From the IMG/VR virus record IMGVR_UViG_3300030109_003848, positions 1 through 29,477 of that record: DNA of 29,477 nt. One strand, given 5' to 3'. This document shows positions 25,456 through 28,971 of the stretch, in pieces. How positions within the stretch are numbered: the first letter of the stretch is position 1; the number at the start of each line of letters is the position of its first letter. Source of the stretch: a virus. The notes below the pieces were generated by a model. It was not told where the DNA came from and searched no databases. It was given only the letters and a program-made list of their open reading frames with translations. The position numbers were made by a program, and so were the translations under genes.

Positions 25456-25587
25456 ATGATAGACATAGGTGGCCTTGTATATAGACGAGGGCAAACCCAT
25501 TGCCCCCCGCCTTTCTTCGGAAAGGAGTGGCTCCCACCTCACGTGTCTCTAAAAGGGTATGTCATCGACCTCTTCTTTCTTTTCTGA
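25456..25587 (+). CDS. Possible small ORF, 43 aa, after the lysis genes
   Basis: ATG 25456 has a good site (GAGGGG, six bases) and opens MIDIGGLVYRRGQTHCPPPF; the frame closes at 25585-25587, antisense to the end of the SSB gene. It could be the last gene of the late transcript. No family recognised; the second half is probably only open because of the antisense SSB tail. Confidence 0.22.
   Translation: MIDIGGLVYRRGQTHCPPPFFGKEWLPPHVSLKGYVIDLFFLF
25489..25525 (+). terminator. Tandem hairpins between convergent operons
   Basis: Hairpin 1 pairs 25489-25494 with 25500-25505 (GGGCAA/TTGCCC). Hairpin 2 pairs 25510-25515 (CCTTTC) with 25520-25525 around a TTCG loop closed by C-G, the extra-stable cUUCGg tetraloop only when the + strand is transcribed. 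No T-tract follows. They are the best candidates for the 3' end of late mRNA in the 181-base gap 25368-25548, which otherwise holds nothing clear. Confidence 0.35.
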
Positions 25588-27391: not shown

Positions 27392-27435
27392 TGCATTATT
27401 GCACAGCTATCCTGCAGATGGAATGCATTTCTGCA
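27392..27435. promoter_or_regulatory. Operator-like TGCA-N4-TGCA pair (downstream cluster)
   Basis: Two copies of the half-site pair: 27392-27403 (TGCATTATTGCA) and 27424-27435 (TGCATTTCTGCA). The first lies within a 15-base sequence ACTGCATTATTGCAC that recurs with one change at 28970-28984. Located at the 3' end of the 27407 gene, ahead of the exonuclease leader. Confidence 0.4.
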
Positions 27436-28012
27436 GTGCATCCATCAAATATTTTCTGTGCAGATAACGCCATTCGATATGCCGATAGAACTCGGCAAAG
27501 CTAGGGAAAAAGGTCGATGTCTTCTTCACATCCTCGAAAGACCGTATCACAATGTCAGCCGGATACTTTGCAAGCTCAGTTGCTAGTGTGCGTGATTTGA
27601 GTGATAGCATCTTATCATCGAGGTCACGCGGCAGTGTCAGCAGGGGTAGCATCATTGCTATCTGCTTTTCACACTGCACTGTGTCCATCGGCTGCAGCGA
27701 TTGACTGACGGCTTTGATGGCCTTCGTCAACGCTGCCGCCTGCACCTTGCCTGTAATCTTAAATCCAAGCAGATCAAAGTTACTGCTGTATCTTGGGGTC
27801 AGCGATGGAATCAAGGTATGCACCAAATCGGTCACTTTGCGTGTTACCACTTGCGGATCGGGGTGAGAAAGTAGATGGGCGACTGCTTTTTTCTTTTCGC
27901 CATCCGAGAGAACGACGGACCCAGTTCCTGTAGGCTGCGTTGATGTCTGCAAACCTGTTGCCTTTACTGCGGTGGTAGTCACGGAAGAGAGCGGCTTCAT
28001 GCTCATGGTCAA
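27407..28012 (-). CDS. Replication-module protein, possible helicase loader
   Basis: 201 aa. N-terminus low in complexity (MTMSMKPLSSVTTTAVKATG), then DGEKKKAVAHLLSHPDPQVV and a conserved C-terminal part TELAKYPADIVIRSFEDVKK followed by FFPSFAEFYRHIEWRYLHRK. Proteins with this ending commonly follow lambda-O-like initiators in alphaproteobacterial phages; by analogy with lambda P it may load the host DnaB helicase, which is an inference only. GGAG seven bases before ATG 28012 supports the start, although this puts the first 77 codons inside the initiator gene in another frame. Confidence 0.68.
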   Translation of the reverse strand: MTMSMKPLSSVTTTAVKATGLQTSTQPTGTGSVVLSDGEKKKAVAHLLSHPDPQVVTRKVTDLVHTLIPSLTPRYSSNFDLLGFKITGKVQAAALTKAIKAVSQSLQPMDTVQCEKQIAMMLPLLTLPRDLDDKMLSLKSRTLATELAKYPADIVIRSFEDVKKTSTFFPSFAEFYRHIEWRYLHRKYLMDALQKCIPSAG

Positions 28013-28430
28013 TCTCCACTGATGCTTTGCTGTTGATAGATGTCACCAATTCATCTGAAGGAAGCCAACCATCCGGCACTCCCTTCTTAGAGTTATTGGT
28101 TATTGGTAGCTTTGTGTCGCACTGTGAGACAGGTGGTGTCTCACTCTGAGACACAGGTGTCTCACTCTGAGACAGCTTATCTCTTCGCATGGTATGAGCA
28201 ATGTAGTACGTTTTGCCTTGATCAAGTCGAGTGATAAAACCCTCCTCTTCAAGTTTGTTCAGCTTTCTTGCGACTGTTGCGCGGCTCATGCCTGTTCTAT
28301 GAGATAACGTGAACGTACTAGGCCAACACAAGGCTTTGTCGTTAGCATAATCACACAATGTCACAAGCAGCCACTTGGCGAGCGGATCATCGATGTCCGC
28401 TCTCATTGCATCTGCTATGTGATGAAACAT
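27780..28430 (-). CDS. Lambda-O-like replication initiator (winged helix)
   Basis: 216 aa. Residues about 1-70 form an HTH_36-type winged helix: DPLAKWLLVTLCDYANDKAL, CWPSTFTLSHRTGMSRATVA, RKLNKLEEEGFI. A flexible linker with SQSET repeats (about residues 92-106) follows, then a C-terminal block FRDYHRSKGNRFADINAAYR with NWVRRS that is typical of phage replication proteins. The linker DNA carries iterons, as in lambda O, so the protein probably binds the origin in its own gene. ATG 28430 is preferred to GTG 28439: it makes a TGATG junction and has GGTGG five bases upstream. Confidence 0.85.
   Translation of the reverse strand: MFHHIADAMRADIDDPLAKWLLVTLCDYANDKALCWPSTFTLSHRTGMSRATVARKLNKLEEEGFITRLDQGKTYYIAHTMRRDKLSQSETPVSQSETPPVSQCDTKLPITNNSKKGVPDGWLPSDELVTSINSKASVEIDHEHEAALFRDYHRSKGNRFADINAAYRNWVRRSLGWRKEKSSRPSTFSPRSASGNTQSDRFGAYLDSIADPKIQQ
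28081..28174. other. Predicted replication origin inside the initiator gene
   Basis: Three 17-base iterons (28115-28174) lie next to an AT-rich segment 28081-28114 with a repeated TTATTGG. In the direction of the gene the order is iterons then AT-rich DNA, the same as in lambda ori. No DnaA box was searched for systematically. Confidence 0.6.
28115..28174. repeat. Three 17-bp iterons
   Basis: Copies at 28115-28131 (TGTCGCACTGTGAGACA), 28137-28153 and 28158-28174 (both TGTCTCACTCTGAGACA). The first differs at two positions. Each identical copy is an inverted repeat TGTCTC-N5-GAGACA. Start-to-start spacing is 22 and 21 bases, two helical turns, so all face the same side of the DNA. Confidence 0.8.
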
Positions 28431-28645
28431 CAAATCCACCCACTAATCCAAACGCGATGATTTTCATCATCATTTTTGCGAGTTGCTAAGCGAATCTTTC
28501 TGACATATGCAGCGCCCCTAAGATTTGGCAACTTACTACTCGGCCATAAAAAGCTGTCTCCTTTTTCAACTTCATCAAGCCAGCGATATTTGTCGACTGC
28601 ACCCCTCGCCATAGGAATGTTCTTTTCAATCTTTGGTGCGTTCAT
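28430..28645 (-). CDS. Small conserved phage protein, 71 aa
   Basis: Starts MNAPKIEKNIPMARGAVDKY at 28645, chosen for GGAGGG seven bases upstream and a TAATG junction (an in-frame ATG at 28660 lacks a site). EVEKGDSFLWPSSKLPNLRG followed by AAYVRKIRLATRKNDDENHR and VWISG resembles small phage proteins with a 'vGDSFfvp......lrsaa...g....tR..dgg.RvWR' pattern found next to replication genes. Probably nucleic-acid related; function unknown. One-base TGATG overlap with the initiator. Confidence 0.75.
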   Translation of the reverse strand: MNAPKIEKNIPMARGAVDKYRWLDEVEKGDSFLWPSSKLPNLRGAAYVRKIRLATRKNDDENHRVWISGWI

Positions 28646-28956
28646 TACACAGCCCTCCATTCACGTTGTTGTCTGCCACTACGGCCTTTACGCTTCTGCC
28701 CTGTGAGTTCGATTAGGCCTTTCTTTTGAAGCTCATTAAACCGGCTGCTGACAGATGATGATGATTCGACGCCATACATACTATGCGCCCAGATTAAAAC
28801 TTCATCATAGATAGCCGGTCCAGTTTCACGCAAGCATTCGAGGACAACCTTCTGCATTTTGCTAGGGTCGATACTTTTTGCTGCTTCGTAGCTTGTTGAA
28901 GGATCGTTACGGCGTACCAGTTTGTAAGCTGGCAGATCAAAGAGGTCTTCGTTCAT
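28645..28956 (-). CDS. Winged-helix phage protein, 103 aa
   Basis: After an acidic start (MNEDLFDLPAYKLVRRNDPS) comes the conserved RNDPSTSYEAAKSID motif, then a winged-helix region: MQKVVLECLRETGPAIYDEV, a second helix and VSSRFNELQKKGLIELTGQK with a basic tail. The family is common in phage early operons and is thought to bind DNA. The start at 28956 has GGAG seven bases upstream; ATG 28968 has none. The gap before it carries promoter and operator-like sites. Confidence 0.78.
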   Translation of the reverse strand: MNEDLFDLPAYKLVRRNDPSTSYEAAKSIDPSKMQKVVLECLRETGPAIYDEVLIWAHSMYGVESSSSVSSRFNELQKKGLIELTGQKRKGRSGRQQREWRAV

Positions 28957-28971
28957 TGCATTCTCCATTAC

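Follow-up and report, generated by a model that had tools for sequence, protein, structure and literature searches.

Three short palindromes lie within the replication initiator gene of this virus and, judging from the sequence, they are very probably (at roughly 0.83) iterons for the protein encoded by that same gene, which together with an AT-rich stretch would make up the replication origin of the phage. The window (the whole stretch of DNA analysed) is an IMG/VR record of 29,477 bases, in which the initiator gene (27780..28439, GTG start, 219 aa) is encoded on the minus strand. Read in the direction of the gene, the first two palindromes (28159-28173 and 28138-28152) are exact copies of GTCTCA-N3-TGAGAC (GTCTCANNNTGAGAC), both translated in reading phase 2 as SQSET. 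The third (28116-28130, GTCGCACTGTGAGAC) has one mismatch and is translated in phase 0 as VSQCD, the mismatch changing an in-frame TGA to TGC. The spacing in gene direction is 21 and then 22 bp. The preliminary description had reported three palindromic 17-mers spaced 21-22 bp apart; these are present, two exact and one with the single mismatch, and correspond to the 15 bp palindromes lengthened by a base at either end. When the whole window was scanned for clustered near-palindromes of any sequence, the array was the sole cluster, with a score of 22, where 20 shuffles reached at most 11.

The initiator comprises a winged helix followed by a disordered linker and a C-terminal helical domain. 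Residues 20-69 (28233..28382, minus strand) matched HTH_36 (PF13730) in a Pfam scan (E=4.5e-13, 49.2 bits against a cut-off of 25), and the protein matched phrog_1032 (replication initiation, E=1e-24) and phrog_270 (E=2.1e-17) in PHROG, profiles which place it among the HTH_36 phage replication initiators. The lambda O model, Phage_rep_O, gave no match in the Pfam scan to E=0.1, in which HTH_36 and other HTH models were listed, and the match to the RepC family was sub-threshold. Because the lambda O model is not matched, we describe the system as working like ori-lambda and not the protein as being lambda O; the data support an HTH_36 initiator that acts in the manner of O, a statement which does not extend to membership of the O family. 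The array codes for about residues 89-109, the linker part behind the winged helix, where the AlphaFold model (mean pLDDT 79.7) has a pLDDT of about 48-59, as expected of disorder. A fold search with this model returned generic winged helices only, none at E below 0.001. The recognition helix (residues 53-65; 28245..28283, minus strand) is a helix in the model, and both residue 54 (codon 28278-28280) and residue 57 (codon 28269-28271) are Ala. The arrangement of the lambda design, with iterons inside the initiator coding region and behind the DNA-binding domain, is therefore found in the window, and the HTH_36 match and low-pLDDT linker bear out the earlier placement of the 17-mers in the linker-coding part of a winged-helix initiator gene.

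Directly downstream of the initiator is a 201-aa ORF (27407..28012, minus strand), in the position occupied in lambda by P, the helicase loader. It has no match in Pfam, PHROG or phage databases, its AlphaFold model (pLDDT 37.6) is unusable, and it is kept at 67% in a relative, L029; Pfam and PHROG identified no loader or helicase beside the initiator in the window. The two genes overlap in different frames over 233 nt (27780-28012), and substitutions relative to L029 within this overlap are distributed across all three codon positions, which is not the case in either gene by itself, a pattern that suggests constraint on both frames. Upstream of the initiator, the window encodes a second small HTH-like protein (28645-28968, phrog_1123, E=2.9e-12).

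IMG/VR was scanned for pairs of sites, which gave 27 loci with GTCTCA and 44 with GTGTCA. GTGTCA-N3-TGACAC was dropped as a control pattern, being a second real class found within initiator genes; for this reason the palindrome written backwards was taken as the true control, and it gave 0 loci in the IMG/VR scan. Most sites in these loci lie within one ORF, behind the winged helix, and a spacing of 21-23 bp predominates across relatives. Among 45 proteins from site-bearing loci, 30 match HTH_36 and 38 match a phage initiator family. The scaffold was present in only one of 48 HTH_36 loci chosen by domain and not by motif (from two bacterial classes) and is therefore a minority class. At the same linker position, the HTH_36 genes of L180, L194, L198, L136 and L146 carry other repeated palindromes, some of them changing frame; these include GTGAAC in L180 and GTGAAA in L194, and GTGACA is a further example. 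One initiator gene (L007:2378-2587) holds nine exact GTCTCA sites with reading phases 1 and 2 mixed, and bacterial genome contigs (L081-L117) contain many paired sites outside any HTH_36 ORF findable with the profile used.

Comparison of these relatives indicates that the repeat is kept as DNA and not as peptide, in whatever frame it falls. The palindrome encodes S-Q/H-x-E-T in phase 2, x-L-x-V/M/L-R-x in phase 1 and V-S-x-stop in phase 0, and the exact sites in 45 non-redundant genes are divided into 73 in phase 2, 55 in phase 1 and 0 in phase 0. Near-exact phase-0 copies nevertheless number 13 in these genes, every one altered in the TGA codon; they include copy 3 of the window, whose sole mismatch removes the stop. 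Since an open frame forces the alteration into that codon, it is the mere existence of the phase-0 copies that is informative. In scans without a fixed spacing, to which these counts are restricted, reading phases are mixed within the gene in 27/41 non-redundant relatives and 69/99 neighbouring pairs are out of frame. Of 74 phase-2 linker peptides of the S-Q/H-x-E-T type, 73 are spelled in exactly the codons of the palindrome, against an expectation of 0.4% from codon usage; the observed fraction is inflated because the genes were picked for at least two exact sites. Among the S-Q/H-x-E-T linkers of the genes so chosen, we found no case of the peptide being kept and the DNA repeat lost, the pattern which the preliminary description had set against an origin. 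The opposite, the DNA repeat without the linker peptide, is seen in five non-coding arrays (L054:2618-2654, L072:3202-3302, L089:7060-7136, L127:13416-13476 and L132:8544-8677), which are situated outside any open frame, 6-26 bp beyond the stop codon of a short gene that encodes an HTH only. These short genes match HTH_36, with sub-threshold scores in L089 and L132; in L072 the array is followed by a very AT-rich tract. Moreover, between the window and the 67%-identical L029, conserved residues keep their codon in 16/16 cases in the block versus 73/116 elsewhere, which argues that selection still acts on the block.

The same comparisons support a match between the sequence of the repeat and the recognition helix of the protein. 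Residue 54 is Ala or Pro in all 17 GTCTCA genes (Ala 16, Pro 1) and Ser, Arg or Lys in 21 of the 22 GTGTCA genes (Ser 13, Arg 6, Lys 2), the exception being L040 with Ala; Ala/Pro at this residue thus separates the classes by the third base of the half-site (GTC vs GTG, 17/17 vs 1/22, Fisher 3.5e-10). When alignment columns are ranked by class information, positions 54 (0.85 bit) and 57 (0.47 bit), which are one helical turn apart in the recognition helix, come first and second of 56. Outside the recognition helix, identity between classes equals that within classes. The best domain tree implies 11 class changes, but the tree is poorly resolved and supported, with a single contrast on well-supported branches, and the number of independent residue-54 switches is therefore uncertain. 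The non-coding arrays follow the pattern, combining Ser with GTG in L054 and L072, and Ala with GTC in L089. L154, not itself selected by motif, its genome having been reached via a motif hit, also agrees, with Ser54 and four GTGTCA-type sites, as does Escherichia phage mEp013, likewise not motif-selected, where Arg54 goes with a single exact GTGTCA site plus two of lower quality, a total not above the shuffle maximum. Selection by recognition helix alone yielded few loci: L150 (helix SRATVFR) carries a pair of GTCTCA sites, each with one mismatch, at a spacing of 21 bp, L151 and L153 have no sites, and all three S-type matches were GTGTCA loci already in the set. Arrays of GTATCA and GTTTCA also exist, and residue 54 there is Ala, Pro or Thr.

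On the 3′ side of the iterons, read along the gene, a stability scan points to a short AT-rich stretch (28084..28113) as a candidate, though weak, unwinding site. At a length of 30 bp, the stretch beginning at 28084 ranks within the least stable 2.8% of the window; at 50 bp the region is unremarkable (41%). AT content is 60% over the first 40 bp on the 3′ side of the block and 51% in the gene. Across 45 genes, AT content over the 60 bp that follow the array on its 3′ side lies 10.5 points (SE 1.0) above that of the gene. The initial claim that AT-rich DNA follows the 17-mers is therefore clear for the 45 genes, but in the window itself the segment is short and weak. GC skew, which had been proposed as a check, does not mark the site; the cumulative skew peaks at 25491, and because this peak lies near a switch of gene direction, skew is unusable for locating the origin in the window.

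The best reading of these data is that the palindromes are initiator-binding iterons of an origin of lambda design, served by a protein family other than that of lambda O. The array would be the origin actually used by the phage. By analogy with lambda and the Stx phages (PMC7466680), P22 and L (PMC8022706) and repABC plasmids (PMC3155836), dimer binding would lead to unwinding and helicase loading. An initiator dimer would bind each palindrome through its winged helix, by way of the recognition helix, and, with sites two helical turns apart, the dimers would be stacked on one face of the DNA. The dimer complex may then open the adjoining AT-rich stretch, where a phage loader or host proteins would load the replicative helicase. 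The unstructured linker would accept any peptide spelled by the DNA and, because the array is within the linker-coding region, gene and origin would travel together. Points against the origin reading are that there are three sites only, one of them imperfect, and that the AT stretch is short and weak.

The array could instead bind the initiator for autoregulation, copy control or incompatibility, and not for origin opening. The iterons of plasmid initiators often have these additional roles, and the weak AT-rich stretch of the window fits such a function. However, the array is located behind the winged helix, within or just 3′ of the gene and not at the promoter, and adjoining AT-rich DNA is a trait of the family, so that we regard a purely regulatory array as unlikely. 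Still less probable is that the phage replicates from another origin and that the block is left over as a relic or serves as a secondary site: one site in three is imperfect, the adjoining DNA is weakly AT-rich and part of the record may be missing, but the full retention of codons at conserved residues relative to L029 and the lack of a competing palindrome cluster in the window speak against it. That the block is merely a peptide-level repeat of S-Q-S-E-T in the linker is barely credible and was rejected, for although two of the three window copies share a frame and a peptide, the frame changes within genes, copies occur in the stop frame, a single codon set (that of the palindrome) is used and copies persist in non-coding DNA.

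Beyond the window, we think it reasonably likely that the initiator-binding iterons described here represent a widespread phage and prophage origin family. One iteron scaffold, GT-N-TCA-N3-TGA-N-AC, would be free to move across frames (including the stop frame, where it is bent) and into non-coding DNA, and a code linking residues 54 and 57 to base 3 of the half-site would set which initiators fire which origins. Such a code would be readable, making the specificity of an origin predictable from sequence. If true, the initiator gene would directly reveal the origin and a single helix position would reveal part of the specificity of that origin, and origin exclusion and plasmid-prophage compatibility would become testable from sequence. 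It would also be a clear case in nature of the same bases serving both as a DNA site and as protein code, with the DNA dictating the peptide in any frame. To our knowledge, the origins of phages with HTH_36 initiators are mostly unmapped, and we found no report in the open-access literature of a frame-hopping palindromic iteron family or of the link between residue 54 and base 3.

The layout itself, with iterons inside the initiator gene, is already known from lambda, P22 and L. Lambda has four iterons within gene O and Stx phages have six, with AT-rich DNA next to them (PMC7466680). The window resembles these origins in its mid-gene repeats, putatively initiator-binding, about two helical turns apart and followed by a candidate AT-rich stretch (PMC7466680), but differs in iteron sequence and initiator family, in having three sites and a weak AT stretch, and in having an ORF without assigned function where lambda has P. 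The lambda-type design put forward in the preliminary description thus survives in the position of the iterons, within the gene and behind the winged helix in a conserved layout, but not in a match to Phage_rep_O, and the AT segment is modest. Gene 18 of P22 and phage L encodes an O-like initiator and contains repeats within its coding sequence, a proposed origin, with each phage having its own repeat (PMC8022706). Here the likeness is the location of repeats within the initiator coding region; the P22 and L repeats are unlike one another and unlike those of the window, and neither a frame-hopping palindrome nor a helix-base link is described for them (PMC8022706). In repABC plasmids, oriV is within repC and silent changes there abolish replication (PMC3155836). 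The window shares with them the placement of the (here proposed) origin inside the coding sequence of its initiator, whereas their oriV is an AT-rich region without iterons and their initiator belongs to the RepC family (PMC3155836). Lastly, phage-inducible chromosomal islands have iterons and AT-rich DNA 3′ of the initiator gene (PMC6092414). They differ in having two iteron sets around the AT region and a primase/rep initiator, with the iterons not within a coding linker, but their 3′ placement is that of the non-coding arrays of L054, L072, L089, L127 and L132 (PMC6092414).
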